Shown: positions 1,643 through 12,472 of the stretch, piece after piece | Layout of the letters: each line of letters opens with the position of its first letter | Numbering within the stretch: the first letter of the stretch is position 1 | IMG/VR virus record: IMGVR_UViG_3300018424_000349 | Coordinates: 1-20,232 of that record | Origin: a virus | DNA: 20,232 bases | Strand: one strand, 5' to 3' | Translations under genes and position numbers: made by a program | The notes under the pieces: generated by a model | The model's database searches: none | What the model saw: the letters and a program-made list of their open reading frames with translations, nothing else | What the model was told of the DNA's origin: nothing

Positions 1643-1852
1643 ATGAGCAAGGTATTCAAGGTTTGCTTTGGACTGGCTACGTTCGTGGTGTTTTATTTTT
1701 TCGGCTGGACAGCAACTGCCACAATCCACTCACACTTTGCAGCGGCAGATATGCCAGAGCAAACTTTGAGTATTGAAGAGTTGGCTTCTGCATTTGAACA
1801 GCAGCATGAAAGCGCCACGCCTTGGGAGACTTGCGAACAGGAGGCACCTTGA
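1643..1852 (+). CDS. Small membrane or exported protein
   Basis: A 69-residue protein with a hydrophobic N-terminal helix (about residues 7-25, VCFGLATFVVFYFFGW) after a short basic start, followed by a soluble acidic tail. The helix may be a membrane anchor or an uncleaved signal; an AAA-D run near residues 33-36 could be a signal peptidase site. The frame stays open far upstream, but the promoter and the GGAGG site place the start at 1643. Its stop overlaps the TTG start of the next gene (TTGA), so the Mre11-Rad50 protein is probably translated by coupling to it. No family recognised. It could be a host-membrane effector expressed early, or simply a leader that feeds the next gene. Confidence 0.65.
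   Translation: MSKVFKVCFGLATFVVFYFFGWTATATIHSHFAAADMPEQTLSIEELASAFEQQHESATPWETCEQEAP
1839..1844 (+). promoter_or_regulatory. Shine-Dalgarno site supporting a TTG start
   Basis: AGGAGG is followed four bases later by TTG 1849. Starting there gives a protein beginning M-KIAHIADTH, the usual Mre11 N-terminus, whereas the upstream in-frame TTG 1822 would add nine residues with no family counterpart. Confidence 0.6.
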
Positions 1853-4800
1853 AAATCGCACACATTGCTGATACTCACATTAAGAACCTGAAGTATCACG
1901 AAGACTATCGCAACTGCTTTGGGCAGATGTACGAAATCCTTCGCCAGCAGGACGTAGATTACATTGTTCACTGCGGCGACATCGCACACACAAAGACCCA
2001 GATTTCCCCAGAGTTTGTGGAAATGGCGTCTGACTTTTTCAGTAGTCTTGCCAGCATCGCACCAACATACATCATTCTTGGCAACCATGACGGCAACTTG
2101 AAGAACAGTAGCCGACAGGACGCTATCACACCTATTATACAGGCTCTTAACAATTCACAAATTCACCTGTTGAAGAACGCAGGTGAGATTGTTGTGGATG
2201 ACAATCTAACACTCAATGTCCTATCTGTCTTCGACCGGGATAATTGGGTTGATCCGTCAGACCCAGACAAGATCAATATCGCCCTTTACCATGGTGCTAT
2301 CTCTAACTGCCAGACAGACGCAGGCTGGACTATGGAGCACGGCGAAGATAACCTCTCAATCTTTGAGGAGTTTGATTTTGCTATGCTTGGCGACATCCAT
2401 AAGCGTCAGTTCTTGGACAAGGAGCGTCGTGTCTACTACGCAGGTTCCACAATTCAGCAGAACCATGGTGAGGAAGACAACAAGGGATTCTCTGTCTGGA
2501 CAATCAACTCCAAGAACGATTGGAACATCGAACACTTTACACTGCAGAATCCCCGACCTTTTATTACAGTTGAATTGACGCGCACAGGCAAGATTCCTCG
2601 CAAGGCATCTGTACCTACAAATGCACGTCTACGACTTGTAAGCGACAACAACCTGCCCCTTGATGTAATGCGCAAAGCAGTAGATGTTGCAAAGCACAAG
2701 TTTGGTCCAGAGTCTATCTCATTTCTTAACCGCGCAGCAGGTAAGCGAGGTGATGTAGAAGAGTTGGCTGACGGTCTTGGTATGCAGAACCTCCGAGACC
2801 CAGAGGTCCAGCAGGAATTGATGTCAGAATACCTAAGAGACTATCAGGTAAAGCCAGATACTCTAGCCAAGATCTACGAACTAAACGCAAAGTACAATGT
2901 AAAGGTCGAGGCAAAAGAAGACATTTCACGAAACATCAACTGGGCTCTTTGTAAGTTTGAGTGGTCTAATCTATTCAATTATGGAGAGAACAACTCCGTT
3001 GACTTTAATAACATCAACGGTATCACTGGTATCTTTGGCAAAAACTTCTCAGGCAAGTCTTCTGTCATCGATGCCATTCTATTCACGATGTTTAACACAA
3101 CATCAAAGAACGAACGCAAGAATGTCAACGTCGTAAACCAGAATCGTGACTGGGGCGAAGGCAAGCTAACAATTGCCATTGACGACAAGACCTACACAAT
3201 CCACCGCAAGGTTACAAAGTATGTGAAGAAAGGCAAGGAAGGCGATAGTATCGAGGCAAAGACTGACCTTGACTTCTCGGTCTATGATGCCGTGCTTGAT
3301 GAAACCACGTCACTTAATGGCACTACTCGTAACCAGACCGATGCAAACATTCGTCGTCAGTTTGGCACTATCGATGATTTTCTTATCTCGTCCATGTCCT
3401 CACAGCACGGCGCTCTTGACTTTATTAACGAGGGCTCAACCAAGCGCAAGGAAATCATTGCCAAGTTCTTGGACCTTCAGTTCTTTGACAAGAAGTTCAA
3501 GTTTGCAAAAGAGGACTCTATTTCGTCCAAGGCACTCGTAAAAAAGTTACAAGGGCGAGACTATGAAAAAGAAATTTCTGAAGCGCAGGAAGCCTTTGAG
3601 GGCTTTAAAACTGCCATTTCTGTGGCAGAGGCAGACGAAAAACTGCTAGAAACAAAGCTGGCAACTCAGCAGGCTCTTCTGCTAGAAGTTTCACGCAAGA
3701 TTACAGACATTCCAACAGACGCTATTGACATCTTGTCTGTTCAGTCTGAGATCAAAAAAACAAAAAATCAGATCATCTCCTTGTCTGATACTGTCATTGA
3801 AGACAGCGAGGCACTACTTAGGGAACGAGAGCGTATTGTAAAGATAGCTGATCTGATGGATCAGTTAGATTATAGCGGTCTTTGCAACTCTCTCACAACC
3901 ATTGAAGAATCAGAACAAAAGCTGGCAGGCTTTACAAATAGTTTGGAGATTGCGACAGAGAAGAAGAAATTACTTGAAGACATACCGTGTGGCTCCTCCT
4001 ACCCTGCTTGTAAGTTTATCCGCGATGCTCATGTTGCTTCGGCAACAATTCCAGAAGTGGAATCCAAAGTGGACGAACTTAAAGACCTACTAGATGGTTT
4101 CAATCCAGAAATTGTTAGAGATCATCTAGACAAGTATGGCAAGCTTGAAACAAAGCGAGTAAAAACTCAGGGTCTTGTAAAAGATCTTGAGCTTTCGGTA
4201 GAGAGAAACAAAAGTGCAATTGAGCGACTTAATAACAAGATGCTCGAACTTAATGCAAAGCAACTCAAGTATAACGAAAACAAAGAAGCAATTGAGAACT
4301 TAGAAAAATTATTAAAGGAGAAAGAAGTTTATGCCAAAGAAATCAAATCACTTGAGACAAAAGATAAATCGAATAACCAGAAGAAGATTGATCTTTACAA
4401 ATCACTTGGCTCAGAAGAGCAACGACTCGAAAACCTCCGAGAAGGACGACTAGAGTTCGAGACAATCCAATCGGAGTATGCAGCGTATGACCTATTCCTG
4501 CGCTGTATGCATCCGAACGGGATTGCTTACGACATCATCAAGCAGAAGCTACCAGTAATCAACGAAGAGATTGCAAAGATTCTATCAAACGTCGTAGACT
4601 TTGAGATTTTCTTTGAGACATCTGGCAACAAGTTTGACATTTTTATCAAGCACCCCAAGCACGATGCTCGCCCTATTGAGATGGCGTCCGGTGCAGAGAA
4701 GTCTATGGCTGCTATGGCTATTCGTCTTGCTCTGCTCTCCGTGTCTTCTCTACCCAAGGGTGACGTGTTTGTGCTTGACGAGCCCGGCACTGCTTTGGAC

Positions 4801-4956
4801 GAAGAGAATATGGCTGGATTTATTCGGATCTTGGAACTAATTAAGGTATATTTCAAGAACGTCTTGCTGATTTCTCACCTTGATTCTCTCAAGGATTGCG
4901 TAGACATGCAGATTGTGATTGAAAAAGAAGCAGGTTTTGCAAAGGTAAATCAATAA
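1849..4956 (+). CDS. 47/46: Single-chain Mre11-Rad50 (SbcD-SbcC, T4 gp47-gp46) recombination nuclease
   Basis: A 1035-residue fusion of two subunits that are separate in T4 and in bacteria. Residues 1-250 are the Mre11 nuclease with all metal-binding motifs: DTH (D8, H10), CGD (D44), GNHD (79-81), YHG (H148) and GDIH (182-184). About 250-365 is the helical Rad50-binding region. From about 370 comes the Rad50 ATPase: Walker A GKNFSGKSS near 398-406, long coiled coils, a hook with C714 and C721, then signature SGAEKSMA, Walker B VFVLDEP near 972-978 and the H-loop histidine in LISH. The complex processes DNA ends for recombination-dependent replication and host DNA breakdown. It starts at TTG 1849, coupled to the upstream small gene, and its stop overlaps the next ATG. 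The frame is unbroken, so the fusion is real unless the assembly is wrong. The CX6C hook departs from the usual CXXC. Confidence 0.93.
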   Translation: MKIAHIADTHIKNLKYHEDYRNCFGQMYEILRQQDVDYIVHCGDIAHTKTQISPEFVEMASDFFSSLASIAPTYIILGNHDGNLKNSSRQDAITPIIQALNNSQIHLLKNAGEIVVDDNLTLNVLSVFDRDNWVDPSDPDKINIALYHGAISNCQTDAGWTMEHGEDNLSIFEEFDFAMLGDIHKRQFLDKERRVYYAGSTIQQNHGEEDNKGFSVWTINSKNDWNIEHFTLQNPRPFITVELTRTGKIPRKASVPTNARLRLVSDNNLPLDVMRKAVDVAKHKFGPESISFLNRAAGKRGDVEELADGLGMQNLRDPEVQQELMSEYLRDYQVKPDTLAKIYELNAKYNVKVEAKEDISRNINWALCKFEWSNLFNYGENNSVDFNNINGITGIFGKNFSGKSSVIDAILFTMFNTTSKNERKNVNVVNQNRDWGEGKLTIAIDDKTYTIHRKVTKYVKKGKEGDSIEAKTDLDFSVYDAVLDETTSLNGTTRNQTDANIRRQFGTIDDFLISSMSSQHGALDFINEGSTKRKEIIAKFLDLQFFDKKFKFAKEDSISSKALVKKLQGRDYEKEISEAQEAFEGFKTAISVAEADEKLLETKLATQQALLLEVSRKITDIPTDAIDILSVQSEIKKTKNQIISLSDTVIEDSEALLRERERIVKIADLMDQLDYSGLCNSLTTIEESEQKLAGFTNSLEIATEKKKLLEDIPCGSSYPACKFIRDAHVASATIPEVESKVDELKDLLDGFNPEIVRDHLDKYGKLETKRVKTQGLVKDLELSVERNKSAIERLNNKMLELNAKQLKYNENKEAIENLEKLLKEKEVYAKEIKSLETKDKSNNQKKIDLYKSLGSEEQRLENLREGRLEFETIQSEYAAYDLFLRCMHPNGIAYDIIKQKLPVINEEIAKILSNVVDFEIFFETSGNKFDIFIKHPKHDARPIEMASGAEKSMAAMAIRLALLSVSSLPKGDVFVLDEPGTALDEENMAGFIRILELIKVYFKNVLLISHLDSLKDCVDMQIVIEKEAGFAKVNQ

Positions 4957-5517: not shown

Positions 5518-6648
5518 ATGAGCAACGAGTTTGACTTTCTGCCACCAGCAGAAGCACCCCCATCATTCAACCAAGAAAAGGACCACTTCCACGAAGAAGT
5601 AGAAGCGGAAGACTTTGGTATGGTTGAGGACTTCGGATTACAGATGGAATACTCTGACGAAGACCTACTACCCGAGAACACAGCCCCATCATCCCTAAAT
5701 GTGGGCTTTGTCGGTGTTGGTGGTGGCGGCAACAAGATGGCAAACGCTATGATTGAGTTGGGTTTCAACAAGACCCTGTTGGTCAATAGCACAGGCAAAG
5801 ACATTCCCAAGAATGTAGAAGAAGAGCACGTCGTTCTTATTCCTGACTCTGACGGCATCGGTAAGAACATCTCCTACGGCAAGGAAGTTCTAACACAGAA
5901 CGGCGCTGTAGTCGAGGACGCACTTCGCATCAAACTCGGCAAGGTTGATTGGCTGTTCGTTATGGCAGGCGGCGGTGGAGGCACTGGTTCATCCGTAGTT
6001 GCCCTACAACCCGTGTTTGAGCGATACCTACAATCTGTTCAGGCAAGCGGCAAGGTTGTCTACATTGTCTCTTGGCCAACAGCACAAGAGAACCTAAACC
6101 CAACCATCGCCAAGAACGCCCTGTCGCTACTCAACGATGTAACTCCTTACCCACATATCGTTCTGGATAACGAGCGCTCCACACGCCTCCTACGCGGTCG
6201 TATCGGTATGCTTGGTATGTATCCAGTAGCGAATACCCAGTTTTCAAAGATCTTCGCACAGATACTCAAGTTGTCTACCGAAGACTCTCCCATACAATCT
6301 TTTGACTCCAAGGACTTGGAGACTTGCTTTGGCAAGGACGGTCGTGCCTTTATTGGCTCTACGATGATCAAAGACCCCAACACCGGCAAGCTCGGCACAA
6401 CTATTATGCACAACTGCATGAATCGTTCTGCTTGTCCACCACCCAAGGGTAAGGCGGCAGCAGGCTCGCTTATACTCGTAGCAAGCGAAGAAATGGTTGC
6501 CGACCCTCGCGTGTCCAAGCACCTTGAGTCTGCGATTGCTTATGTCGGTGGTCGCTGCGAGACACTTTTCTCTGGTGTTTATGTGCGAAAGAATGTCCCC
6601 GGACTGATTGCGATACTAAGTATGAATGGTATCGAGAAAGGAAAATAG
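5518..6648 (+). CDS. FtsZ/tubulin-superfamily GTPase of phage type
   Basis: A 376-residue tubulin-like GTPase. After an acidic, probably disordered extension (residues 1-60) comes the FtsZ-type fold: nucleotide loop GVGGGGNKMANAM (66-78), VNST (89-92) where FtsZ has VNTD, tubulin signature GGGGGTGSS (151-159), and a T7-like loop SFDSKDLETCF whose D263 and D266 match the catalytic DxxD of FtsZ. The C-terminal domain (from about 313, AAAGSLILVASEEM) also follows the FtsZ pattern and ends at residue 376. The short FtsZ tail that binds FtsA and ZipA is missing. Likely role is a GTP-dependent filament, either for positioning phage DNA or heads as PhuZ does, or for interfering with host division; neither is shown here. 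It stands alone between tagged genes, 17 bases after the last one. Confidence 0.85.
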   Translation: MSNEFDFLPPAEAPPSFNQEKDHFHEEVEAEDFGMVEDFGLQMEYSDEDLLPENTAPSSLNVGFVGVGGGGNKMANAMIELGFNKTLLVNSTGKDIPKNVEEEHVVLIPDSDGIGKNISYGKEVLTQNGAVVEDALRIKLGKVDWLFVMAGGGGGTGSSVVALQPVFERYLQSVQASGKVVYIVSWPTAQENLNPTIAKNALSLLNDVTPYPHIVLDNERSTRLLRGRIGMLGMYPVANTQFSKIFAQILKLSTEDSPIQSFDSKDLETCFGKDGRAFIGSTMIKDPNTGKLGTTIMHNCMNRSACPPPKGKAAAGSLILVASEEMVADPRVSKHLESAIAYVGGRCETLFSGVYVRKNVPGLIAILSMNGIEKGK

Positions 6649-7888: not shown

Positions 7889-8293
7889 ATGAAACTGATA
7901 ATGGAAAACTGGAACAAATTTGTCAACGAAGAAGAACAAGTTGAAGAAGGGATTATGGACACGATTAGACAAACCACACGCGACTTCACAGGTAAACTGA
8001 AGAGCGCTAAAGAGATGCGCAATTTAGCAAATCGCCTTGTAAATGTTGATCCTTTCAACGATCCAAGAAGTAATGAATTTTTTCGTGACTCTGAGCAACT
8101 TGTAGGATTGATTAAAGCTCACGGTGTCGATTGGATGAGACCTGCTGCTGGTGGTGAGCAGATAGCCGATGCTGGTGAGTTGAGCCGAATTATTGGTGCT
8201 TACAAAGAAGATCCAGCCGGACAATCTCAAAACTTTGAATCTGCAATGATGAATCTTAAGAATGCTCTCGATGCTTACATAGAGGGAAAGTAA
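7889..8293 (+). CDS. Class II-tagged protein of unknown function
   Basis: A 134-residue protein starting MKLIMENWNKFVNEEEQ. The same pattern (MKxIMExWxxFVxEE) opens the protein at 15870. It resembles the T4 internal-protein targeting sequence MKTYQEFIAEA in having an aromatic residue, F, a small hydrophobic residue, then glutamate. Although ATG 7901 would give MENWNKF, the residues before it are shared with the other copy, which favours ATG 7889. The rest looks globular and helical, with no known motif. It starts one base after the holin-like gene; its stop is one base before the apparent ATT start of the spanin. Confidence 0.8.
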   Translation: MKLIMENWNKFVNEEEQVEEGIMDTIRQTTRDFTGKLKSAKEMRNLANRLVNVDPFNDPRSNEFFRDSEQLVGLIKAHGVDWMRPAAGGEQIADAGELSRIIGAYKEDPAGQSQNFESAMMNLKNALDAYIEGK

Positions 8294-8294
8294 C

Positions 8295-8675
8295 ATTAAA
8301 CAAAAGATTCTAGCATTCTGCTTAAAACACTGGAAGGAGATTGGACTTGTCCTTCTCCTTCTTGTCGTATTTAGTAAGTCGCAGTATGATGTTCGCAACA
8401 TTATAAAAGCACACGAGATTGCCGAGCAGTCATTAAAAGACCAGATAAGCACCTTAGAGTCTCTCCACACCGAAGAGTTGCGCTTACGCGATGAAGCCCT
8501 TGAGCAATACCGCATTGAAATGGAACAACTAGAATTAGAATACGAGGCGAGACAAGACGAGATAAAGGACTTAACGAGAGCAGAAAAAGAAGTTATAATA
8601 AAAGAGTTCAAACAAGACAAGGCTCTGATTATACAACGCCTTGAAGAAACCTATGGATTAAGATATGTTGAATAG
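8295..8675 (+). CDS. Inner-membrane spanin-like (Rz-type) protein, probable ATT start
   Basis: The frame is open from 8283 to 8675 and encodes, from ATT 8295, a 126-residue protein with one N-terminal membrane helix (IGLVLLLLVVF, residues 16-26) followed by a long charged coiled coil (residues 35-120). This is the build of an i-spanin, which spans the periplasm and helps disrupt the outer membrane. The frame has no ATG, GTG or TTG until about 8472, deep in the coiled coil, which would remove the membrane helix. ATT 8295 lies one base after the upstream stop, with GAGG at 8282-8285 nine bases ahead, so an AUU start or coupled reinitiation is likely. A +1 frameshift from the upstream gene is the alternative. 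Its end overlaps the next gene by 11 bases. Confidence 0.6.
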   Translation: MKQKILAFCLKHWKEIGLVLLLLVVFSKSQYDVRNIIKAHEIAEQSLKDQISTLESLHTEELRLRDEALEQYRIEMEQLELEYEARQDEIKDLTRAEKEVIIKEFKQDKALIIQRLEETYGLRYVE

Positions 8676-9075
8676 CCTAATATTGCTTGCTCTGCTCTCG
8701 ACCGCAAGCGCTGAAGACTTCACAGTTGTCTCGGAAGATCAACCCGCCCCCTTCGAGGGCGTTTTGCTTAGTGTGCCAGCCGTAGCAGAGGTATTGGCAC
8801 AGCACGAAGAAATCAAAATGAAATGCGACCTTGAGATAGAATACCAACTTGATAAAGCAAACACACAATGCAAACTTGACAAGAATATACTTGAGGCAAG
8901 AATCGTAACACTTGAACAACAATATAAAGAAATCATAGCGCAAAAAGATCTTGTTATCAATAAGCAGCAAGCAATCATCAAGAAGGGCGCACCACATCGT
9001 AAGTGGCTATGGTTTGCAGGTGGTATTGTCTTAGGTGGTGCGAGTTACTACGGTATCGAACAGGCGACACAATGA
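8665..9075 (+). CDS. Secreted, C-terminally membrane-anchored protein of the lysis region
   Basis: A 136-residue protein with a signal peptide (residues 1-16, LILLALLSTASA, likely cut after ASA), the segment QPAPFEGVLLS (about 26-36), a coiled-coil region with cysteines at about 53 and 67, and a C-terminal membrane helix (KWLWFAGGIVLGGASYYGI, about 113-131). I recall similar QPAPFxG proteins near phage lysis genes. It begins inside the spanin gene, an arrangement often seen for overlapping Rz/Rz1 pairs, but it is longer than an Rz1 lipoprotein and lacks a lipobox. It may be the partner of the spanin or an independent envelope protein. It overlaps the next gene by ATGA. Confidence 0.7.
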   Translation: MLNSLILLALLSTASAEDFTVVSEDQPAPFEGVLLSVPAVAEVLAQHEEIKMKCDLEIEYQLDKANTQCKLDKNILEARIVTLEQQYKEIIAQKDLVINKQQAIIKKGAPHRKWLWFAGGIVLGGASYYGIEQATQ

Positions 9076-10891: not shown

Positions 10892-12472
10892 ATGCCAAGA
10901 TTAACGAAACAACAAATACTCAAAGAAGTTGTTAAGTGCGGTAAAGATCCTTCTTACTTCCTGAAAAACTATGCCCGCATTTCTCACCCGATGCACGGGC
11001 TTATGTTGTTTAAGACATATGATTATCAGGATAAGCTGCTAGAAGATTTTAACGACTATCGTTTCAACATCATCAACAAGGGTCGCCAGCTAGGTATCTC
11101 AACGATTACCGCTGGCTACATTGTTTGGATGATGCTGTTTCACCGTGACAAGGCTATCCTTGTTATGGCAACCAAGTTTGAGACAGCAGGCAACTTGGTT
11201 CGCAAAGTCAAGAACATTATGAAGAACCTTCCTGACTGGATCAGGATTGCGAACATTACAACTGACAACCGCACGTCTTTCGAGTTATCAAACGGTTCTT
11301 CTATCAAGGCTGCTTCTACCTCTGGTGATGCTGGTCGTTCTGAAGCACTATCACTTCTTGTTCTTGACGAGGCTGCACACATCGAAGGGTTAGAAGAGTT
11401 GTGGACTGGTCTATACCCAACACTATCAACGGGTGGTCGCTGCATTGCGATCTCAACACCAAACGGTGTTGGTAACTGGTTCCACAAAACTTGCACAGGT
11501 GCCGAGAGTAGTGAAAATAATTTCCATCTCACAACGCTTATGTGGGACGTTCACCCTGACAGAGATGAAGAATGGTTTAAGAAAGAAACCAAAAACATGT
11601 CCAGAAGACAGATTGCGCAGGAGTTGGAGTGTAACTTCAATACTTCTGGCGAAACTGTTATTGATCCAGACAACATGGAATGGATTATGGCTAACATTAG
11701 AGAGCCAAAGCACAAAACCGGATTTGACAGAAACTTTTGGATTTGGGAAGAATACGACCCAACTTGCAATTATCTTATGGCTGCAGACGTTGCTAGAGGC
11801 GATGGTGCTGACAGTTCTACGTTTCATATTCTAAAGCTTGAAACAATGGAGATCATTGGCGAATACATGGGCAAGCCAACGCCTGACCTTTATGCGAACA
11901 TGCTTAATCAAGTAGGTAGAGAGTTTGGTAACGCCATGATGGTTGTAGAAAATAATTCTATTGGCTATACAGTTATAGATAAGTTAGTAGAGTATGGCTA
12001 TCCTAATCTTTATTACTCTATCAAATCTACACACGAATACATTGACCAACACCTTGGCGAGCATAAGTCTGGTGCTATCGCTGGTTTTTCCACTACAAGC
12101 AAGACCAGACCCCTCATTGTAGCCAAGTTGGAAGAGTTTGTGAGAAACAAACTAGTTAAGACGTATTCTTCACGTTTAGCAAACGAGTTCCGCACTTTTA
12201 TTTGGTATAACGGGAAGCCACAAGCCATGAGGGGCTACAACGATGACTTAGTGATGGCTCTTGCGATTTGTTGTTGGGTTAGAGATACTGCCCTCCAGAC
12301 AAACGCCCGAGACCTAAACTATCAAAAAGCATTCGTAGATTCGATTATGACTTCCAGAACTACCCTAAATACACAGATAAGAGGACAAATTGGCTACACA
12401 GGTAATGATACTACTAGTAAAATGAATGAAGCAAAAAATTTATATTCACAATATATGTGGATTATTAAGTGA
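10892..12472 (+). CDS. 17: Terminase large subunit (T4 gp17-like)
   Basis: The 526-residue packaging motor: an N-terminal ATPase that drives DNA into the prohead and a C-terminal RNase H-like nuclease that cuts concatemers. The ATPase shows KGRQLGIST (63-71) at the Walker A position, Walker B LLVLDE (155-160) with catalytic E160, and the coupling motif STP (188-190). The nuclease shows D299 in MAADVARGDG, E353 in VVENN and D451/D452 in YNDDLVMA. Walker A lacks the lysine of the GK(S/T) pattern (Ile at that site), so K63 or R65 may serve instead. Length is a little below T4 gp17 (610). It lies nine bases from the portal gene, the usual T4-like order. Confidence 0.95.
   Translation: MPRLTKQQILKEVVKCGKDPSYFLKNYARISHPMHGLMLFKTYDYQDKLLEDFNDYRFNIINKGRQLGISTITAGYIVWMMLFHRDKAILVMATKFETAGNLVRKVKNIMKNLPDWIRIANITTDNRTSFELSNGSSIKAASTSGDAGRSEALSLLVLDEAAHIEGLEELWTGLYPTLSTGGRCIAISTPNGVGNWFHKTCTGAESSENNFHLTTLMWDVHPDRDEEWFKKETKNMSRRQIAQELECNFNTSGETVIDPDNMEWIMANIREPKHKTGFDRNFWIWEEYDPTCNYLMAADVARGDGADSSTFHILKLETMEIIGEYMGKPTPDLYANMLNQVGREFGNAMMVVENNSIGYTVIDKLVEYGYPNLYYSIKSTHEYIDQHLGEHKSGAIAGFSTTSKTRPLIVAKLEEFVRNKLVKTYSSRLANEFRTFIWYNGKPQAMRGYNDDLVMALAICCWVRDTALQTNARDLNYQKAFVDSIMTSRTTLNTQIRGQIGYTGNDTTSKMNEAKNLYSQYMWIIK

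Follow-up and report, generated by a model that had tools for sequence, protein, structure and literature searches.

A predicted tubulin/FtsZ-superfamily GTPase with a conserved acidic N-terminal arm and no C-terminal tail in T4-like phages

The DNA analysed here (hereafter, the window) is the whole stretch of 20,232 nucleotides of IMG/VR record IMGVR_UViG_3300018424_000349. An assignment to a T4-like genome, made earlier in a first-pass annotation from the sequence alone, was borne out by matches to the terminase, portal and prohead protease PHROGs in the window and by major capsid and tail sheath proteins in its relatives. The ORF under study follows a fused gp47-gp46 gene, which it abuts in the relative L353, and the features referred to below are these:

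1822..4956, + strand: fused SbcD-SbcC (gp47-gp46) gene, upstream of the tubulin gene (context)
5518..6648, + strand: tubulin/FtsZ-like GTPase gene, an intact ORF of 376 aa with an ATG start (Pfam, phmmer, fold model)
5518..5694, + strand: acidic N-terminal arm, residues 1-59 (family alignment, model)
5527..5547, + strand: EFDFLPP, an additional FDF-like box confined to the subclade of the window protein (alignment)
5614..5634, + strand: arm motif F-[DG]-[FM]-[VI]-[ED]-x-[YF], here FGMVEDF, residues 33-39 (family alignment)
5668..5679, + strand: LPEN, residues 51-54, with L51 and N54 invariant, modelled confidently against the core (alignment, model)
5713..5733, + strand: T1 nucleotide loop GVGGGGN, residues 66-72 (family alignment)
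5968..5994, + strand: T4 tubulin signature GGGGGTGSS, residues 151-159 (family alignment)
6166..6174, + strand: T6 loop DNE, residues 217-219 (family alignment)
6208..6273, + strand: core helix H7, residues 231-252 (secondary structure of the model)
6304..6315, + strand: T7 synergy loop DSKD, residues 263-266 (alignments with FtsZ and the family)
6343..6633, + strand: C-terminal activation domain, residues 276-372, the tail-less protein ending four residues further on
10892..12472, + strand: T4-like large terminase gene, the marker used for the linkage test (context)

In the fused gene, SbcD and SbcC (gp47 and gp46 in T4) form one ORF of 1044 aa, and the fusion is kept at ~1040 aa in related genomes.

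The product of the ORF at 5518..6648 matched the Pfam tubulin GTPase domain PF00091 with 35.3 bits against a cut-off of 33, and all 14 close family members inspected matched it too. By phmmer, it was related to FtsZ chains (E 2e-8), to the structure 3zid (E 5e-8) and, weakly, to TubZ. An AlphaFold2 model was built from an alignment of 49 family sequences, which was used in place of a shallow 14-sequence alignment that had given a poor model (pLDDT 52). The resulting model had a mean pLDDT of 88.5, with core blocks mostly above 90; residues 51-60 were ordered and residues 1-50 mostly disordered or of low confidence. Foldseek searches with this model retrieved FtsZ, CetZ and TubZ folds at E values of 1e-17 to 5e-20 and with a TM-score to target of up to 0.80, the top solved structure being CetZ of M. 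thermophila (E 5e-20), followed by FtsZ and TubZ. Comparison of close relatives gave dN/dS values of 0.025-0.030, and the gene is under strong purifying selection. In line with the first-pass assignment to the tubulin/FtsZ-like GTPases, the product is a real member of this superfamily, its fold being predicted confidently.

The nucleotide-binding and T7-loop motifs named in that annotation lie at the residues given above, and its claim of an intact catalytic loop held up. D263 and D266 align on D209 and D212 of E. coli FtsZ, and both were invariant in 49/49 family representatives sharing 50-90% identity with the window protein, as were the glycines of T1 and T4, N218 in T6 and many other residues. 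The T7 loop thus reads D-x-x-D as in FtsZ, whereas the PhuZ sequences in the same alignment read D-x-x-N. In T6, the DN pair is common to the family, TubZ, gp138 of Bacillus phage G and 3zid, and FtsZ carries PN or RN at this position. Judged by the conservation of these sites together with the low dN/dS, the family protein is, in evolutionary terms, a working GTPase; from its membership of the superfamily, we infer that it would also polymerise.

Scans of IMG/VR retrieved 137 close relatives, and 351 when an alignment of diverse members was used, which puts the number of relatives known from virus contigs at 351 or more. The 50,697 named phage records contained no close homologue, the sole relative there being gp138 of phage G (24% identity over half the length; E 2.6e-19 with the family profile), and none was found in plasmids either. 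The window protein matched no PHROG, and a single family member matched the PhuZ PHROG weakly (E 1.8e-4). In GTDB genomes, a member was encoded at five loci, spread over four MAGs (three Flavobacteriales-type, one Halobacteriovorax). The window terminase was nearest, at 42-44% identity, to those of a Microcystis phage and of Flavobacterium phage immuto. Together, the MAG carriers and the terminase kinship point to hosts among marine Flavobacteriales, which are likely for part of the family, the binning of phage contigs being weak evidence. No account of this tubulin family was found in open-access papers; phage tubulins as such are known, and in the open-access literature and the collections covered here neither the family nor its phage group nor its N-terminal arm appears to have been described. 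At L676 (contig G034, 112,654 bases), a related phage encodes a second tubulin-like protein, which is very divergent: it scored 134 bits against the family profile, differs at the N-terminus, has a short, basic and helix-like C-terminal end, and had no match in named phages.

To place the family among known systems, we compared it with FtsZ, PhuZ, CetZ (represented in the tree by 3zid only) and TubZ. The family formed a clade of its own (98/98), FtsZ a separate one (100/100), and PhuZ lay far off. AU tests rejected none of the groupings of the family with FtsZ (p 0.55), with PhuZ (p 0.31) or with TubZ and 3zid (p 0.36); every grouping tested survived, and no nearest kin was singled out. The earlier impression that the protein is nearer to FtsZ than to PhuZ consequently stands for profile similarity, FtsZ and CetZ being found and PhuZ phages unmatched, and is not established as kinship by the trees.

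The family shares with FtsZ the GTPase loops, the D-x-x-D of T7 and an FtsZ-like activation domain. However, it gives no match to the Pfam FtsZ_C domain, lacks the linker and C-terminal peptide, and is only 18-20% identical to FtsZ structures in the case of the window protein, while host FtsZs belong to the other clade. Against the FtsZ equivalog TIGR00065, the window protein scored 50.5 bits where the cut-off is 295.2, and by these sequence comparisons it is not an FtsZ. Nor is it a PhuZ: a profile match, an acidic C-terminal tail and chimallin are all absent. With the PhuZ proteins of 201phi2-1 and phiKZ, it has in common that it is a phage-encoded tubulin-superfamily GTPase of a large lytic myovirus, bears an acidic terminal extension and is patchily distributed, as would suit a non-essential gene; it differs in that its arm is N-terminal, the acidic C-terminal tail is missing and the FtsZ-type D-x-x-D is kept. 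The family profile had no match in the 201phi2-1 and phiKZ genomes, and PhuZ models in BFVD matched the window fold at E values of 1e-10 to 1e-12, far worse than CetZ and FtsZ structures. Chimallin was found in 0/12 long contigs and in both positive control phages, with a single query sequence that a very remote homologue could escape.

M. thermophila CetZ (3zid) ranked first both for the family profile (E 4.9e-12) and for the fold, and it carries the TGSS signature and the T6 DN pair. In these two traits, the family sides with TubZ-like or CetZ proteins and not with FtsZ. Nevertheless, 3zid is archaeal, is 21% identical and shows no arm motif in the aligned part, and the tree did not group it with the family. 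The closest viral fold match was a BFVD model annotated as 'FtsZ Cell division GTPase' from an uncultured Caudovirales phage (A0A6J5RW92; E 3e-22), yet its identity was 17%.

Both ends of the protein set the family apart. At the C-terminus, only 6-12 residues extend past the last PGLIAI-type strand in all 153 non-redundant full-length members, which agrees with the docking peptide having been reported as missing in the window protein. None of these 153 members has an FtsZ-type linker and docking peptide or an acidic knuckle or tail of the PhuZ kind, and the TubZ-type H11 and tail were found neither in their C-termini nor in the window model. At the N-terminus, the acidic extension of about 60 residues described previously proved to contain a conserved motif at a fixed distance from the core. 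Across the family, this arm is 34-102 residues long with a median net charge of -11. The motif F-[DG]-[FM]-[VI]-[ED]-x-[YF] was present in 49/49 representatives (one with W, and single exceptions at other positions), always 24-26 residues from the core and with an invariant L-x-x-N in between, whereas the stretch preceding it varied from ~3 to more than 40 residues.

This combination of a constant spacing and a variable front part points to a fixed docking site rather than to a free tether like the FtsZ linker, and suits a docking arm of fixed reach whose site would be on its own or the adjacent subunit. In the tubulin fold, strand S1 leads into loop T1 of the nucleotide site and is therefore expected to start at the T7 end; the arm leaves the core at the start of S1 and therefore should lie towards the T7, longitudinal, end. 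In PhuZ, polymerisation depends critically on an extended acidic C-terminus that stretches along the adjacent subunit (PMC3678025).

The first-pass annotation had also raised a poisoning of the host division ring, for which the absent C-terminal tail might be read as a specialisation. In such a scheme, the phage tubulin would co-assemble with host FtsZ or cap it, the Z ring would be blocked and the cell would grow undivided. A family without the docking tail for partners of the FtsA/ZipA type would suit this, as would a fold near enough to be detected by FtsZ profiles and the fact that the carrier MAGs also encode ordinary FtsZ with C-terminal tails. However, a poison would have no need for both T7 aspartates and all nucleotide loops to be invariant in 49 diverse members, the conservation of the arm would be left unexplained, and the identity to FtsZ structures is as low as stated above. 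Known phage inhibitors of FtsZ such as Kil of lambda and gp0.4 of T7 are moreover tiny and unrelated to tubulin. Since the tail is missing family-wide, its place being taken by a conserved arm at the N-terminus, and since the catalytic residues have been retained, reading the missing tail as such a specialisation is not supported, and we consider the poisoning of host division quite unlikely.

We also examined the genomic setting. The tubulin gene lies upstream of the terminase gene in 10 of the 13 loci with enough upstream sequence; in other clades, it is found between the portal and protease genes or between those of the capsid and a head-tail adaptor or sheath. Its codon usage is moderately close to that of the capsid and sheath genes (rank 25/199). 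No properly placed T4 late promoter (TATAAATA) was detected at the gene, and the count of this motif was no higher than chance. From loci of 17-21 kb, it had seemed that the gene always sits in the head block; whole long contigs ruled this out, as in G010, G011 and G015 it lies ~40-75 kb from the head genes. With such distances in three genomes, a late structural role cannot be read from the position of the gene.

These data bear on whether the protein might be a morphogenesis factor, that is, a scaffold, static or dynamic, on which proheads or tails would be built and which virions might carry. Such a role would account for the three arrangement classes in which the gene stands amid terminase, portal, protease, capsid and sheath genes, and in the window it is surrounded by ORFs with N-termini like capsid-targeting peptides. 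The tubulin itself, however, has no such N-terminal peptide, the gene is distant from the head genes in the three contigs just named, and many relatives whose head genes are intact, L380 among them, lack it. Among the explanations weighed here, we judge this one to be the least probable.

Another possibility is a TubZ-like partition or DNA-tethering system, in which a filament would segregate phage genomes by way of a centromere and an adaptor that binds DNA. In its favour, TubZ and gp138 of phage G have the same DN pair in T6, and the family profile detects gp138, which is itself TubZ-like. TubZ, however, recruits its cofactor through the C-terminal H11 and tail, which the family lacks, and the genomes resemble those of lytic T4-like phages. 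No tubR/centromere neighbourhood was found either: iterons and tandem repeats were absent at the gene, the search for tubC-like repeats gave only coding repeats of neighbouring N-termini, and no TubR-like or HTH neighbour was recognised among the window ORFs, as judged by eye. Genome partition is therefore unlikely in our assessment.

With regard to inheritance, one tubulin copy was present in each of 14/14 long contigs (125-267 kb) that had been chosen as carriers, a second match in G015 being negligible (12.9 bits). In seven genomes, the identity of the tubulin to that of the window tracked terminase identity (r 0.97), which suggests, from the sequences compared, that the gene is mainly inherited vertically. 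The carrier-chosen contigs had given the impression of a core gene of the lineage. This was ruled out with 16 long related contigs chosen by terminase only, of which three had a member, one of them from a divergent subfamily, and with L380, whose terminase is 91% identical to that of the window, whose site at the tubulin position is empty and which has no copy elsewhere in its 45-kb contig. Given its absence from 13/16 long related contigs, the tubulin function looks dispensable for phages of this lineage, these contigs being fragments in which absence is not proven case by case. In a similar manner, PhuZ is missing from about one third of nucleus-forming phages (PMC10299810).

The fold, the invariant GTPase and T7 residues, the retained D-x-x-D and the selection on the gene, along with its single copy per carrier contig, its codon usage and its position inside the head/tail block in several clades, lead us to favour a phage-owned tubulin that would assemble autonomously into a GTP-driven filament and place phage cargo, as PhuZ and TubZ do, a reading that we regard as moderately probable. 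Its distance from the head genes in three genomes, its absence from most long related contigs and a search for partner genes that found none weigh against this reading. The protein would self-assemble into GTP-driven protofilaments, with D263 and D266 inserting into the GTP site of the next subunit for hydrolysis. Less securely, the acidic aromatic arm may bind a single fixed position, either on its own subunit or on the following one, and stand in for PhuZ's acidic C-terminal knuckle, an idea prompted by the fixed spacing of the motif and the loss of the family C-terminus. The cargo positioned in the infected cell can only be guessed at, and might be replicating DNA, proheads or a membrane site; the positioning of phage DNA or heads, as put forward in the first-pass annotation, is a plausible possibility.

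A bolder form of this autonomous-filament proposal, which we put forward tentatively and which falls a little short of probable, is that an element controlling polymerisation or docking cargo has moved from the C-terminus, where PhuZ, TubZ and FtsZ have it, to an N-terminal arm of fixed length. The family would then rank as a third major group of phage tubulins, one that is widespread among marine T4-like myoviruses and provides a spindle- or treadmill-type cytoskeleton without a phage nucleus. To our knowledge, detailed accounts of phage tubulins are confined to PhuZ of the nucleus-forming jumbo phages and to the plasmid-like TubZ phages. A family hundreds strong in marine T4-like phages where chimallin was not found would mean that a phage cytoskeleton does not depend on a phage nucleus. 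If the arm has been read correctly, the family also offers a tubulin with its regulatory tail at the opposite end of the chain, and pairs such as the window and L380 provide natural with/without comparisons for asking what a phage tubulin is for.

A search for partner genes by co-occurrence identified no partner. The families found in all seven tubulin-carrying genomes and in neither of two distant controls were a DnaE-type polymerase, a RuvC-like resolvase and a pair of small membrane proteins, which probably mark the lineage. In contig G005, where T4-like head genes are present, the polymerase is a bacterial DnaE-like PHP-domain enzyme (L422:4359-7796; phrog_405, E 1e-232) and the resolvase lies at L428:11955-12488; both were present in 7/7 long contigs and BLAST-negative in Mel-JY01 and immuto. 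The overlapping genes for small membrane/coiled-coil proteins at ~8292-8675 and 8665-9075 of the window have a spanin-like arrangement; the pair was conserved in 7/7 genomes compared, and in contig G010 the tubulin gene stands exactly between the two.

Two further observations concern other ORFs of the window. The product of 9072-9617 matches phrog_3704, named ferredoxin (E 1e-16), a name that is probably wrong because the protein has one cysteine. Finally, the ORFs starting at 541, 4956, 5177, 6654, 7226 and 16881 are otherwise unrelated and share a recurrent N-terminus, M-K-I-T-K-x-x-L-K-Q-I-I-K-E-E (DNA repeat family D1), which looks like a capsid-targeting sequence of the T4 type, including an [LI]-x-E cleavage site. 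When such N-termini were sought with a strict pattern, 2-15 starts were found per related genome, and the resemblance makes it possible that these ORFs encode a set of head-packaged proteins.
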